A stretch of DNA of 32,834 bases from contig JAPYSM010000006.1 in the NCBI GenBank assembly GCA_029936485.1, positions 1-32,834 of the forward strand, written 5' to 3'. Made by a program: the position numbers and the translations under genes. Shown here in pieces: positions 132 through 10,480 of the stretch (positions are counted from its first letter, which is position 1; every line of letters begins with the position of its first letter). The notes beneath the pieces were generated by a model, which had not been told where the DNA came from, made no database searches, and saw only the letters and a program-made list of their open reading frames with translations. This DNA comes from Dehalococcoidia bacterium. GTDB taxonomy: Bacteria; Chloroflexota; Dehalococcoidia; Lucifugimonadales; Lucifugimonadaceae.

Positions 132-1310
132 TTGAAGATTGAACGCATAGAGATATACCCACTTGTGGCCGAGCTTAACGAGCCGTTTGGCTGGTCGCAG
201 AGATGGACGTCCACCCGAGCGACGACGGCGGTCAAGATAATCGCCAACGATGGGACGTACGGGTGGGGTGAAAGTGGTGCGGCCGAAACAATGCGATCGC
301 TGGCACCGCTGTTGATCGGCGAAGACGCCACGCTTCCCGAACGTGCATGGCAGAAGATTTACGCCGAGATCTACCAAGGCCATAACTACTCAGGCCCGGG
401 CATGAACGCCCTTAGCGCGTTCGACATGGCGCTGTGGGACATAGCCGGCAAGGTCGCGGGCCGACCTGTTTCCGAGATGCTCGGCGGCGGCTCCCGTGAT
501 CGGGTACCCGTATACGCGACCGGGTTGTACTACCTTGAAAACGACTACCCGAATCGGATGGCCGAAGAGGCGCGTGGCTACGTCGATGCCGGCTTTACTG
601 GGGTCAAGATGAAGGTCGGAGGGAAAGGATTTCTGGATGACGTAAACCGCGTTTATCACGTCCGGGACGTGATCGGCGAAGACATCCACTTGATGTTCGA
701 CGCCAATGAAGGCTATGACGTCAAAACCGCTATAGACTTCGGACGACGTGTCGCAGACGCGGATATTTCATGGTTCGAAGAGCCCTGTGGCTCATACGAT
801 CTCGACGCCAATATCCAGGTCCGAAACAACGTGCCTATGCCGACCTCAGGCGGCGAGAGTCGCCAGACGCGCTACGAGTTTTCCGATCTGTTTGCGAAAC
901 ATGTCTTCGACATCGTCCAGCCAGACATTGTGAACGTCGGCGGAATATCAGAAATGTTCAAAGTCGGACACATGGCGAACGCCTACGGTGTCCAGTTCAA
1001 TCCGCACTTCTGGGGCAGCGGCATCAGCCTCGCCGCCACCCTCCACGTAGCGGCGTGCCTGCCGTCCAACCCGCCGTCTTTTACGGCCGAACCTTACGTG
1101 AATCAGACGGTAATGGAGTTCGACCGTACCCCACACCCGATCCGTGAAAACCTGACCGAACCGATCTTCGATCAGGTCGACAGCCACATCGCGGTCCCGA
1201 CATCGCCCGGCCTGGGCATAGAGGTCCACGACGACGTGCTCAAAAAGTACCTGCAAGGAGACGGCCCGATAGTTGTGGACCAAGCAGCAACAACCGCGTG
1301 GGGGCGCTGA
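132..1310 (+). CDS. Mandelate racemase/muconate lactonizing enzyme (enolase superfamily), probable sugar-acid dehydratase
   Basis: ORF with TTG start; motifs VKMKVGG (KxK), LMFDANEGYD, WFEEP, GGESRQTRYEF, QPDIVNVGGISE, NPHFWGSG typical of the MR subgroup. Confidence 0.9.
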   Translation: MKIERIEIYPLVAELNEPFGWSQRWTSTRATTAVKIIANDGTYGWGESGAAETMRSLAPLLIGEDATLPERAWQKIYAEIYQGHNYSGPGMNALSAFDMALWDIAGKVAGRPVSEMLGGGSRDRVPVYATGLYYLENDYPNRMAEEARGYVDAGFTGVKMKVGGKGFLDDVNRVYHVRDVIGEDIHLMFDANEGYDVKTAIDFGRRVADADISWFEEPCGSYDLDANIQVRNNVPMPTSGGESRQTRYEFSDLFAKHVFDIVQPDIVNVGGISEMFKVGHMANAYGVQFNPHFWGSGISLAATLHVAACLPSNPPSFTAEPYVNQTVMEFDRTPHPIRENLTEPIFDQVDSHIAVPTSPGLGIEVHDDVLKKYLQGDGPIVVDQAATTAWGR

Positions 1311-1325
1311 GAAACCCCGTAACTT

Positions 1326-1363
1326 CCTCACTCCAACCCTGTCCCGCGAAGAGAGGGGTCACA
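1326..1363. repeat. Short palindromic repeat, CCTCACTCCAACCCTGTCCCGCGAAGAGAGGGGTCAC type
   Basis: Matches the layout CCTCACyC..CCCTCTCCC-loop-GGGAGAGGG seen at several other intergenic sites in the window. Confidence 0.55.
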
Positions 1364-1388
1364 CCACCCAGCACAATAGGAACCACTC

Positions 1389-2501
1389 ATGAAGATCACT
1401 GACGTCACGCTCACCCTGTTCGCCTGGAACGACATTCCAGCCACCAAGTACGGCCAGCTCAGCCAAGAGTTCAGCGGCACCTCTCAGATGGGGTTGGTCA
1501 CGATCACCACCGATCAGGGAATACAGGGCCACGCGTTCCTGGGATCGGCGAGTCGGGGCGCAAACCTTGATGGCCAGAGTTTGATCGACTACTTGAAGCC
1601 GGTCGTGATGGGCCAGGACCCGCTGGACCGTGAGCGGCTGTATCAGGATCTTCAAAAGCGCTACCGCAACACCACTCCTCGGGTAATTGGAGCTGTGGAC
1701 ATCGCGTTATGGGACATTGCCGGCAAAATCGCAGGGCTACCCATCCACCAGCTTCTCGGCTCGTACCGAGACAACGTCCCGGCATACGCAAGCTCCGCAG
1801 TTCTCGACTCACCTGAGGCCTACGGAGAGCAGGCAGCACAGTACAAGGCAGACGGCTGGGCGGCGTACAAGATTCACCCACCTACAATCAGCGCCAAGGG
1901 CGACATTGCAGTGTGCGAGGCCGTCAGGAAGGCGGTCGGCGACGATTACCGGATCATGCTGGACTCCACATGGGCCTACAACTACTACGAGGCGCTAGCG
2001 GTCGGCAAGGCGGCTGAACGTTTGGGCTTCTACTGGTACGAAGACCCACTAGCCGACGATGACATGTACAACTACATCAAGTTGCGAGAGCACATGGACA
2101 TCCCGATCATGGCGACCGAGTACTCGCCGGGCGGCTTCACCGCATACGCCCCGTGGCTGGTCTCGCAGGCAACCGACTACCTGCGCGGCGATGTCGCGGT
2201 CAAGGGCGGGATCACGGCCATCTACAAGACGGCGCATCTCGCCGAAGGCTTCCACCTCAACTACGAAGTCCACCATGGCGGCAACTCGCTGAACAACGTT
2301 GCCAACACACACGTGATCATGGCGATCAAGAACTGCGAGTACTTCGAGGTACTGCTGCCATCTGGTGCGCAGAAGTACGGTCTAATCGAGGATATCGACC
2401 CGGATGAGAACGGCCTGATATACGCATTCAACGAACCCGGCCTCGGCGCAAAGATCGATTTTGAGCTGATCGAGCGCATGAAGACGGCGGTTCTGAGCTA
2501 A
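1389..2501 (+). CDS. Enolase-superfamily MR/MLE protein, tandem paralog A (YKIHPP motif)
   Basis: ATG start; motifs AYKIHPP, IMLDSTWAYNY, YWYEDPL, ATEYSPGGF, HHGGNSLNN. Confidence 0.9.
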   Translation: MKITDVTLTLFAWNDIPATKYGQLSQEFSGTSQMGLVTITTDQGIQGHAFLGSASRGANLDGQSLIDYLKPVVMGQDPLDRERLYQDLQKRYRNTTPRVIGAVDIALWDIAGKIAGLPIHQLLGSYRDNVPAYASSAVLDSPEAYGEQAAQYKADGWAAYKIHPPTISAKGDIAVCEAVRKAVGDDYRIMLDSTWAYNYYEALAVGKAAERLGFYWYEDPLADDDMYNYIKLREHMDIPIMATEYSPGGFTAYAPWLVSQATDYLRGDVAVKGGITAIYKTAHLAEGFHLNYEVHHGGNSLNNVANTHVIMAIKNCEYFEVLLPSGAQKYGLIEDIDPDENGLIYAFNEPGLGAKIDFELIERMKTAVLS

Positions 2502-2620
2502 ATAGCCCCCGGCCATAAAGGTGTCTCGGCATTCAGTGCAAAGTCATTCTGAGCATATGCGAAGGACCTTCACCGACAGGCCATTCAACAGAAACATATC
2601 GATTGAGCCCGGACCTTGAA

Positions 2621-2658
2621 CCTCACTCACCCTAGCCCTCTCCCACTGGGAGACGGGA
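2621..2658. repeat. Short palindromic repeat copy (CCTCACTCACCCTAGCCCTCTCCCACTGGGAGACGGGA)
   Basis: CTCCCACTGGGAG core hairpin; similar to the other copies. Confidence 0.6.
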
Positions 2659-2677
2659 CCAAACGACAGGCAATCAC

Positions 2678-3775
2678 ATGAAGATCACAGACCTCACGAT
2701 CAAGCTTTTCAAATGGGAAGGCATCCCGCCACGCAGGCAGAGTGATGCGTCCACCAGCCAGCTAGGGCTAGTGACGATCTCTACAGACGAGGGTCTACAG
2801 GGCCACGCCTTCCTAGGGTCGTCTATGGCCACCGCCGAAGACGATGCGCCTGGATTAATCCGCTATCTGAAGCCGCTGGTCATGGGCCAGAATCCGCTGG
2901 ATCGTGAACGGCTCTGGCAGGAGTTGTGGACACGCAACCGACAGGTGAGCTTCCGAGCCATCGGTGCTATCGACTGCGCACTATGGGACCTCGGGGCTAA
3001 AGCAGCTGGACTACCGCTGCACAAGTTGCTCGGCTCGTACCGCACCAGCGTCCCCGCATATGCATCATCCGCGCCGATGGACAAGTTGGAGCTGTTCACG
3101 GACGAGGTCGCGCACTATAAGGAGCGTGGCTGGACGGCGTACAAGATTCACCCGCCACGGATACCGGCCTACGACATCGAGGTCTGCGCCGCAGTTCGGG
3201 AGGTCGCGGGATCGGATTTCACCCTGATGCTGGACTCGATGTGGTCGTATGACTATCCGTGGGCCCTACGTGTCGGTAAAGCGATCGAGGAGTTGGACTA
3301 CTACTGGTACGAAGACCCACTCCCGGAGGACGACCTCGGCGGTTACGTAAAGCTGCGCAAGAATCTTGACATCCCTTTGATGGCGACCGAGTACGCCCCC
3401 GGTGGAGGCTTCACAGCATTTGCGCCGTGGCTCCAGTACGGTGCGACCGACTATCTGCGCGGAGATATCCAGGTGAAGGGCGGTATAACCCCGCTCATCA
3501 AGGCTGCGCACATGGCAGAGGCTTTCCACCTGAATTTTGAGATGCACCACGGAGGCAACTCGCTCAACAACATCGCCCAACTCCACGTGATCATGGCGAT
3601 GAAGAACTGCGAGTTCCTCGAAGTCCTGCTCCCGGACGCCGCACAAAAGTATGGCATCTCGGAAGATATCGAGGTCGACTCAAACGGCATGGCGCACGCT
3701 TCGGACAAGGTTGGCATTGGCGCCGAGATCGACTTCGCGATGATCGAGAAGATGAAGGCAGCGGAGTTGTTTTAG
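2678..3775 (+). CDS. Enolase-superfamily MR/MLE protein, tandem paralog B
   Basis: ATG start; long shared blocks with 1389..2501 (GWTAYKIHPP, YWYEDPL, ATDYLRGDIQVKGGIT, HHGGNSLNN). Confidence 0.9.
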   Translation: MKITDLTIKLFKWEGIPPRRQSDASTSQLGLVTISTDEGLQGHAFLGSSMATAEDDAPGLIRYLKPLVMGQNPLDRERLWQELWTRNRQVSFRAIGAIDCALWDLGAKAAGLPLHKLLGSYRTSVPAYASSAPMDKLELFTDEVAHYKERGWTAYKIHPPRIPAYDIEVCAAVREVAGSDFTLMLDSMWSYDYPWALRVGKAIEELDYYWYEDPLPEDDLGGYVKLRKNLDIPLMATEYAPGGGFTAFAPWLQYGATDYLRGDIQVKGGITPLIKAAHMAEAFHLNFEMHHGGNSLNNIAQLHVIMAMKNCEFLEVLLPDAAQKYGISEDIEVDSNGMAHASDKVGIGAEIDFAMIEKMKAAELF

Positions 3776-7247: not shown

Positions 7248-8744
7248 CTACGGTGTAGGCGTCGCAATCTTCCCGAATATCTCAGTATCCGGGTGGAACG
7301 CGACCCAACCGAACCAGTACGACACCTGGCCAGGAAGCCGGGCAAGCGTCTCGGTTCCGTCCGATTTTACAAGGCCCGTCTCCTCAACACGCCACTGCAC
7401 CCCGTCCTCATCAAGCACCACGTCCGGGTCCTGCGTTGGCGTAAAGTTGTGACCAGCGCGCTCGTACGTCCGGGCTGCCTCGGCAAGCGGATTGAACGTA
7501 ATCACCAGTTCCTGCCCCCCCAGCGTGTCGTTCACGACAGGCGTTTCCTGGAGCGCCTCAAGCGAGTACGCCTTGGGAGAATCGGCGTAGTTGAGCGCAA
7601 GAACCCGATCCTTCAGGTTCAAAGCCTCGTTAGTCTGGAACGTCGGGAACAACCAGTCGGACGAGTTGAAGTAGTCGTAATAAGCCGAGCCGCGCGTGTT
7701 CAGATTGCGGTAATTCCGGTCGAAACCGGTATCTATGTCCAGGACCTTGGTTTTTGGGTTCTTCTCCAGCCAATCGCCCCATGTCGTTAGCGTTAGCGGC
7801 AGTTGCTTGAACCTGAGATCGCTGAACGCCAGTTTGCCGATGACCGGGTCCCCCGTTAATGAGTGCCAGAGCGTCCGGCTACCTGAGTCGTACATGAGCT
7901 TGTTGCTCTGATACAGGAACCCGGACGTGCCGATCCGCTGGACCTTCCCATCAAGCTCGGCGTCGTACAGGACGCCCATTCCGCAGAGAGTTCAGTAGAC
8001 GAGGGCGACGGGTTTTCCGCCCACCACGTCGTTCGATAACTCATGCCACGCCAGAATTCGCAACGGGTAGGCTCTTTCGTCGCCGTTGATGCTGACCCCG
8101 AATACAGGCTCGTCCAATTCCAGATATGTCGCTCCACCGGGTGCCGTGAACTCTGGATTGTCGAGCGGCGGTATCCCATCTACACCTACGCCGCCCCACA
8201 CCGCTCCGGATATCGGAACGCTTGCCGGGACGCCTTCGTAAAAGAAGTCGATGAACCGGCGGTCTATGACGCTATAGAGATCGCCCTTCCAAGCAGCGTA
8301 CCCCGGAACCGCCTCGATCTCCGGATGCTGCCCAAGCCACCGATATGCGTCCTCGTGGAGATTGAAGCTTGTTGGGTCAAACTCCTGACCCGTAAGCCGG
8401 GTCAGTGCGTCGGCTATCGCTGCCCGCTCCTCGTTGGCAAAACCAGCGCTGGCGAGGTCCACAATCGGAGCGATGAAGCCCGGGTTACCGGTATCGGCGG
8501 CCTGCCGTATCGCCGTTATCTCGATGCCCTCCTGCCGTGTGAACAGGTTCCGCAGTTGCAGCCGCACCTTGGCTTTTTCAGGTGAGGTCGAGAGCACCGT
8601 GGCGTTGGGCCCTGCGGTCCCGATCGCGATCGGAGCGGCTTCGTCGGTTCCGTTACCGCACGCAGTGATAAGAATTACGCCTAGTCCGGCTGTAAGGATC
8701 GATGCAACCCGAAAGTCAAAGGATAAGAAGTAACGATGTGTCAT
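7248..8744 (-). CDS. DUF3179-family lipoprotein, candidate selenoprotein with in-frame UGA (Sec) at the conserved YCxLCG motif
   Basis: ORF tracks 7992..8804 and 7248..7979 are the same frame, separated by a single TGA plus TLCG; N-terminal signal with LITAC lipobox; YPLRILAWHELSNDVVGGKPVALVY-[UGA]-TLCGMGVLYDAELDGKVQRIGTSGFLYQSNKLMYDSGSRTLW is DUF3179-like on both sides. Confidence 0.75.
7959..7976 (-). promoter_or_regulatory. Candidate bacterial SECIS hairpin GGCGUC-CUGUAC-GACGCC
   Basis: Perfect 6-bp stem, 6-nt loop containing GU, beginning 15 nt downstream of the UGA. Confidence 0.45.
7992..7994 (-). other. In-frame UGA at the Cys position of Y-C-T-L-C-G (candidate selenocysteine codon)
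   Basis: Minus-strand codons GTC TAC TGA ACT CTC TGC GGA ATG GGC GTC; the frame is open on both sides. Confidence 0.6.
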
Positions 8745-8883
8745 GGACGAAATTGGTGACGCAGCGATTGCGATGAACAGATAACCGGGAAGGCGGCTCC
8801 ACAAAAAAACGGACCGTTCGTATCCGTCCCTGTAGAGGTTACGAAGCGGCCCGTTATTCAGGTACCAATATTTTCCCGGTCGC

Positions 8884-9321
8884 CTACTTCGGCGGCTGGA
8901 TAAACTCGAGCCAGTTACCCTCGGGGTCCTGGAGATAAATGATCCCTCGGGTTCCTTCCGGCGTCTCCCGGAAAATCGGATCGGTGACGAACTTGATCCC
9001 CTTCGCAGTCAGGTCATCGAAGATCGTCTGCAGGTCCTCGACATGAAAACAGATGTGCATCGCGCCGAACTGGTTCTTTCGAAGGTAGCCTTCTTCACCC
9101 GGCGGATTGTGATATTTCACCAGCTCTATACGGTGATTGTTCTCGATCCCGACGAACCGCAGGGTACGGCGCGCGCCTGGGAATCCAGTGTGGTCACCTT
9201 CCGGAGGGGCGACAGCATCGACCTCGTGCTCGACCTTGAGGCCTAGAACGGTGACGTAAAATTCGGTGATCTTTTCCAGATCCTGGACCACAATTCCGGT
9301 GTGGTCGAAATTCATGACCAT
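8884..9321 (-). CDS. VOC (glyoxalase/bleomycin resistance/dioxygenase) family protein 1
   Basis: NFDHTGIVVQDLEKITEFYVTVLGLKVEHEV, MHICFHVEDL, YLQDPEGNWLEFIQ. Confidence 0.88.
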   Translation of the reverse strand: MVMNFDHTGIVVQDLEKITEFYVTVLGLKVEHEVDAVAPPEGDHTGFPGARRTLRFVGIENNHRIELVKYHNPPGEEGYLRKNQFGAMHICFHVEDLQTIFDDLTAKGIKFVTDPIFRETPEGTRGIIYLQDPEGNWLEFIQPPK

Positions 9322-9436: not shown

Positions 9437-9874
9437 TTAAGGACGCTGGGTGAACTCCAGCCAGTTACCTTCCGGGTCTTGCCCGTAGACCAGCCCAACC
9501 GTGCTGCCGTCCGGCCGAGTTCGCCACTTTGGTTCGGTCACAAACTTCACTTTGTTTTTCAGCTCTTCGTAGACCGATGCGAGGTCCTCAACGTCCCAAC
9601 AGATGTGCGTAGAACCAAACCTATGGACGGCCACGTGGCCATCGGTAGCCGGTGGGTCTATGAAGTAGATTAGCTCGATCTCGTGGTCACCAGGGATTCC
9701 TACAAAGCGCAACGTTCGATGAACGTTTGGAACGCCTGTGTGATCTCCATCGGGCTGCGGTTTGGCGTCGATCTCGTGCAGCCGCTCTAACCCAATGGTG
9801 TTGACGTAGAAATCGGTCATCATTTCGAGGTCATCGACCACGATGCCGACATGGCTCCAGTTCTTGATCTTCAA
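9437..9874 (-). CDS. VOC family protein 2, paralog of 8884..9321
   Basis: TTG start (LKIKNWSHVGIVVDDLEMMTDFYVNTIGLERLHEID), THICWDVEDL, YGQDPEGNWLEFTQ. Confidence 0.87.
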   Translation of the reverse strand: MKIKNWSHVGIVVDDLEMMTDFYVNTIGLERLHEIDAKPQPDGDHTGVPNVHRTLRFVGIPGDHEIELIYFIDPPATDGHVAVHRFGSTHICWDVEDLASVYEELKNKVKFVTEPKWRTRPDGSTVGLVYGQDPEGNWLEFTQRP

Positions 9875-10480
9875 ATTTGTTCTCCCATCCGGATACGCCT
9901 CGCACGCACACAGCGCGGGCGCCATCCTAATCCAGACGGACGAACGTCACAGCCAATTTACCGTCGCCACCAACTCGAGTGCAACATCGCTCACAGGTCC
10001 CATATGACCATCCCTCGAGGTGACACCCTCGACGGCCGCGTCGTTCAGAATCCCGTCCAACTCTGCTGATCTAGCCAGAGCGGAATCGTGACCAGATCCA
10101 ACTTCAAGGATGTGAAGCCGCGTCTGCATCAGGCCGATCGGCGCGATTAACCGGCACACCGTCACTTCCCTATCTGGCACGGTTGATTGGTATTCAGCAA
10201 GTTCGCAGTCGTTTTTATGACGCGTGCGACCAGCAACCGTTCTGGCCGCGCGCTCGATAGATCCGCCAAACAGCGGCGAGGCTCTGAAACATCAATTCAT
10301 TACCGTAATTCGGTTGGAACGGATAAATGTCGGTGAAACAGTACAGGGCGATCTTCCGCGGTCAACAAGTTCACTCGGCGAGCACCACACGTCCCTCAAG
10401 CTAATCCCCTGTTACATTTGCTTCCTCGGGTGTCGACGCATCGGCCGTCGGCCTTCAATTGCAACGGAGCATTCGTAAAA

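Follow-up and report, generated by a model that had tools for sequence, protein, structure and literature searches.

Background

Selenoproteins with selenocysteine (Sec) in place of the leading Cys of a CxxC motif, as is predicted for the protein described here, include the Trx-like, DsbA-like and Prx-like UxxC proteins treated in PMC2398784. A DUF3179 domain-containing protein (pfam11376, motif UxxC/T) also figures among the selenoprotein families listed in passages of a 2022 review (PMC9312934) and a 2026 review (PMC13188914), and both listings credit Zhang & Gladyshev 2007 (NAR 35:4952). In the literature searched, the passages found to mention DUF3179 did not deal with structure or function, and “selenoprotein” and “SAR202” occurred together in no paper. 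DUF3179 differs from the Trx-like, DsbA-like and Prx-like proteins in being a duplicated, mainly beta domain in which a thioredoxin fold was not found. Rieske [2Fe-2S] domains, such as naphthalene dioxygenase ferredoxin (PDB 2qpz), were the top structural neighbours of its first repeat and space their His, Cys and next ligand position as DUF3179 spaces its His, Cys/Sec and following Cys; DUF3179, however, lacks the first Cys ligand, has Cys in place of the last His, and shows no significant sequence similarity.

The DUF3179 selenoprotein is said to have been listed first, by Zhang and Gladyshev, from a deltaproteobacterial symbiont. The locus studied here shares with that predicted family the Pfam family (PF11376) and the UxxC motif, but belongs to marine Dehalococcoidia (Chloroflexota), in which most DUF3179 clades are predicted to use Sec and many paralogs occur per genome; the clade of the protein is further distinguished from the first case by an N-terminal helical domain. 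A sequence-only reading of this DNA had proposed a new selenoprotein family. Since DUF3179 had already been listed, the gene is very probably, on the sequence evidence below, a well-supported new case within a known predicted family.

The DUF3179 gene and its in-frame UGA

The window (the whole stretch of DNA that was analysed, 32,834 nucleotides) carries a DUF3179 lipoprotein gene on its minus strand (7248..8744) which, read through the UGA, runs for 498 codons from ATG 8744 to a TAG stop at 7250-7248. The single in-frame stop of the frame 8804..7248 was the TGA at 7994-7992 (7992..7994, codon 251), in the context ...GGKPVALVY-[TGA]-TLCGMGVLYDAELDG..., and the reading of the frame together with the relatives predicts Sec here as first residue of U-x-x-C. 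Its partner, Cys254 (7983..7985), was Cys in 55 of the 56 aligned sequences, and a conserved His234 (8043..8045; 52/56), 17 residues before Sec, is a candidate active-site or metal residue. The Pfam match to PF11376 covered residues 189-487, spanning the UGA (E=2.2e-72), with 244 bits against a gathering cut-off of 27.

The sequence-only reading had described ORFs 7992..8804 and 7248..7979 as one minus-strand frame divided by a single TGA, with about 500 codons free of any further stop; these coordinates were recovered as given, and the 498-codon frame is otherwise intact. The frame does extend to 8804, but this position is probably not a real start: ATG 8744 is the likely one, because the congener alignments begin there. 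The lipobox that had been noted was recognized by eye as ILITAC at residues 24-29 (signal peptide plus lipobox ITAC with Cys29, 8658..8744), AC(G/S) being common to the congeners, and a lipoprotein is therefore predicted.

Conservation of the UGA site in relatives

Seventy-six genomes from the bacterial family of the window were searched for DUF3179, which was found in 48 of them (up to 14 genes per genome); UGA-containing copies were tallied in at least 36 of the 76, often several per genome. Among the DUF3179 matches listed in these genomes the in-frame stops were TGA only, and in all 54 family genes inspected at nucleotide level it fell at [YFW]-U-x-[LIK]-C, with the variants YUTLCG, FUTLCG, WUPLCF, YUILCN and WUPICF. 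Homologs without UGA carry Cys at this position (YCTLCG in the nearest ones, FCPLCN or YCPLCN in others), and UGA was aligned to this Cys both in the 54 family genes and across the phylum, the same site pattern being present in further Chloroflexota lineages (400 genomes). TGA stood at the identical codon in seven separately assembled congeners, and distant paralogs carried it too; because the identical codon is TGA in the seven congeners, its occurrence at codon 251 is far beyond chance. The closest named genomes were metagenome bins labelled “Dehalococcoidia” or “Chloroflexi”, and several of them bear marine isolate names.

Stops elsewhere in DUF3179 genes were rare: two Cys homologs contained TAG, a single TGA occurred in a Cys homolog, and one Sec copy had additional TGAs. 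Such stops resemble lesions and provide a natural control for the TGA of the Sec site. In the Cys homolog L127 (G031:C46) the TGA stood off the site, at the position of a conserved Trp, and L108 (G048:C46), in which the domain contains further TGAs besides the one at the Sec site, appears to be a decayed gene. Recoding of TAG in the two genes that contain it was considered and rejected, since the TAG lies off the site and the host genes are Cys homologs.

In an unrooted tree of 89 rows, the distribution of Sec and Cys needed three changes. A pair of Cys genes (L111, L112) was placed within the Sec clade of the window gene, which suggests a change whose direction, from Sec to Cys, we infer on an unrooted tree. 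The present analysis adds that most DUF3179 clades in Lucifugimonadaceae (marine Dehalococcoidia) are, as predicted from their genes, users of Sec. One full-length relative of the window gene (L113, G008:C1:181740-182636) had neither Sec nor Cys at the site, which reads SPVNG, and also lacked the second Cys. The second DUF3179 gene of the window genome (L028, G000:C150:10271-11281) contained no internal stop and gave no match to the UxxC/CxxC pattern applied; together with L119 to L123, it may belong to a group from which the redox site has disappeared.

A hairpin downstream of the UGA

A predicted bacterial SECIS hairpin, GGCGUC-CUGUAC-GACGCC, was located on the minus strand at 7959..7976 (nucleotides 19-36 from the U of UGA), with a 6-bp stem and an apical loop at 7965-7970; it starts 15 nt past the UGA codon and spans 16-33 nt after it. 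The mean minimum free energy of the 24-nt stretch was -10.1 kcal/mol in 51 Sec genes vs. -3.5 in 35 Cys genes, and the mean z with respect to synonymous recoding was -2.1 vs. 0.0 (Mann-Whitney p about 1e-13 for the Sec vs. Cys difference). Significance per gene was moderate (many p values of 0.02-0.09), and the strength lies in the whole set.

Stem cells were paired in 98.9% of cases in the UTLC/UILC types (29 sequences) and in 99.0% in the UPLCF type (15 sequences, shifted register), with double, compensatory changes at four and two stem pairs, respectively. Pairing fell to 14-54% when the partner was slid along, and Cys homologs at the same registers were paired at 47% and 38%; as the sequences are related, the shuffles are not probabilities, and the weight rests on the occurrence of two registers and on the Cys homologs as a control. 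The stem directly after the UGA is thus conserved with compensatory changes and missing from most Cys homologs. In two Cys homologs, L116 (G072:C181) and L127, the Cys codon is still followed by a SECIS-like hairpin, which may be left over from earlier use of Sec, before a change to Cys.

Selection and selenocysteine machinery

The dN/dS after the UGA was 0.08-0.14 against the seven congeners, indicating strong purifying selection, and was about equal to or below the upstream value (one pair had a saturated dS in the upstream part). Neither stops nor frameshifts were present downstream of the UGA in the comparison with these congeners, so the downstream half showed neither relaxed selection nor lesions.

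The source genome contained selA in two pieces on contigs C121 and C105 (with the junction LSATLT common to both), selB on contig C108 (679 aa) and selD on contig C122 (L022, G000:C122, at 1527); in-frame TGA was absent from selB and from the selA pieces. The selD gene has an in-frame UGA of its own (CAGUAGKYSQADL), at the usual Sec position of SelD proteins, so that SelD, too, is predicted to contain Sec. A DNA search located the 5' 46 nt of tRNA-Sec at the very end of contig C110, with 100% identity to the gene of a congener; the contig breaks off after the UCA anticodon arm, about half of the gene being present. No tRNA-Sec was returned for the source genome by RF01852 and ARAGORN, only tRNA-Ser and other tRNAs (150 of 317 candidates scored). 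A 94-nt tRNA-Sec match was present in all seven congeners, the anticodon UCA being confirmed in two. Of the 36 genomes tallied with UGA-containing DUF3179, 29 had a tRNA-Sec match above 60 bits; the other seven are drafts, and include the genome of the window, which nevertheless has the fragment. Two matches occurred in one genome at G037:C329 735-828 and 2393-2486, and likewise at G051:C3 and C17; these pairs may reflect duplication or overlapping assembly. As the sequences are metagenome bins, the link between the window and the Sec genes of further contigs depends on binning; the congeners speak against an error of this kind.

Decoding of the UGA

The window gene is almost certainly a functional selenoprotein gene. 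SelA, SelB, SelD and tRNA-Sec(UCA) would decode UGA codon 251 as Sec, with the mRNA hairpin 16-33 nt downstream (bSECIS) directing insertion, and the product would be a secreted lipoprotein, presumably membrane-anchored, made up of an N-terminal helical domain and the duplicated DUF3179 domain. Computation shows that the UGA site is conserved, that the hairpin follows it, that the codons beyond it are under selection and that the Sec machinery is encoded; from this we infer Sec insertion itself. These four lines uphold the proposal of the sequence-only reading that Sec replaces the first Cys of CxxC, and leave its caveats, mutation or assembly error, excluded or very unlikely.

True lesions do occur in the family (the TGA at Trp in L127, the extra TGAs of L108, the TAG of two Cys homologs), and a Cys codon could in principle have become TGA by nonsense mutation, in a pseudogene, or by sequencing error. 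Its presence in seven separately assembled congeners and in distant paralogs, the low dN/dS after it (0.08-0.14) and the maintained hairpin make this extremely improbable; the relatives already refute it. Hardly any probability remains either for reassignment of UGA (e.g. to Trp) or for non-specific readthrough in the source organism, for which nothing was found besides the in-frame UGA itself: UGA terminates ordinary genes, as had been pointed out for the gene ends at 1310 and 12326 (both were seen, the latter in an ATGA overlap), selB and the selA pieces contain no in-frame TGA, and in DUF3179 the in-frame UGA is limited to one Cys-equivalent site accompanied by the hairpin. That reassignment had been judged unlikely from the outset agrees with this. 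An ATG (7979) 12 nt past the UGA might allow two products, by a stop at the UGA and a restart, but the Met is Thr or Ser in most congeners (GTGVLY, GSGVLY), so the restart is not conserved, and the UGA lies inside one Pfam domain, where a predicted strand ends; the chance of such an arrangement appears negligible.

With the UGA read as Sec, the UxxC motif and the lipobox make an anchored, extracytoplasmic selenol/thiol oxidoreductase the most likely role, which would be exerted via selenenylsulfide chemistry or with Sec as a metal ligand.

Fold and candidate active site

The DUF3179 domain is an internal duplication, an observation added by the present analysis: repeat 1 (residues 189-352, 7689..8180, minus strand) contains the candidate active site, with His234 and U251xxC254, and repeat 2 (residues 360-498, 7251..7667, minus strand), homologous to repeat 1 (hhalign E=5e-29), is degenerate, without the His, Sec and Cys. 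AlphaFold2 gave a mean pLDDT of 89.8 for the whole protein and 94.9 for repeat 1. Nearly all Foldseek matches of repeat 1 were Rieske domains (2qpz with probability 0.99 and TM 0.56 by target length; best E 0.049), and several were also returned with the whole-protein model. No sequence homology between DUF3179 and Rieske proteins was found with hhalign (small and large alignments), Pfam (to E 10) or a PDB profile search, and no sequence relative was found in the PDB. The resemblance of the predicted fold, closest to Rieske domains, is taken as a lead only.

This lead raises a different reading, in which Sec is used but the site would hold a metal within a Rieske-like fold rather than form a selenenylsulfide redox pair. 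It draws on the Foldseek matches of repeat 1 and on the spacing His-x16-Sec/Cys-x2-Cys, from His234 to U251 (17 residues) and C254 (3 more), which equals the Rieske His-x16-Cys-x2-His. Against it, the Foldseek E value was never below 0.049 and the profile comparison with Rieske sequences was negative; of the Rieske ligands CxH...CxxH, DUF3179 has H-x16-[UC]-x2-C only, with a variable residue at H-2. The first Rieske Cys is thus not conserved, and an ordinary Rieske [2Fe-2S] cluster is therefore not expected. We consider a metal centre possible, though rather unlikely. Equally tentative is the wider model, in which DUF3179 would be a tandem-duplicated, divergent Rieske-like fold with Sec at a cluster-Cys position, either as a new metal-site ligand or as a redox pair in a former cluster loop, within an anchored lipoprotein expanded in marine Dehalococcoidia.

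Gene context

A VOC/glyoxalase-family gene (8884..9321, minus strand) lies directly upstream of the DUF3179 gene and is preceded by a second one (9437..9925, minus strand), the order being kept in congeners. The neighbourhood was rejected as a functional clue, as the VOC-VOC-DUF3179 order occurs only within the genus and the neighbours in other clades are unrelated; besides these two genes, no stable partner of DUF3179 was found among the clades compared. Elsewhere in the window, three successive plus-strand genes (132-3775) look like members of the enolase superfamily.

Conclusions

Standard annotation splits or truncates genes such as these UGA-containing DUF3179 genes. Specific, testable ideas about the DUF3179 family arise from its Sec site, its internal duplication and the lead towards a Rieske-like fold, and the presence of UGA-containing copies in at least 36 of the 76 family genomes points to a real demand for selenium at the cell surface of these uncultured bacteria.
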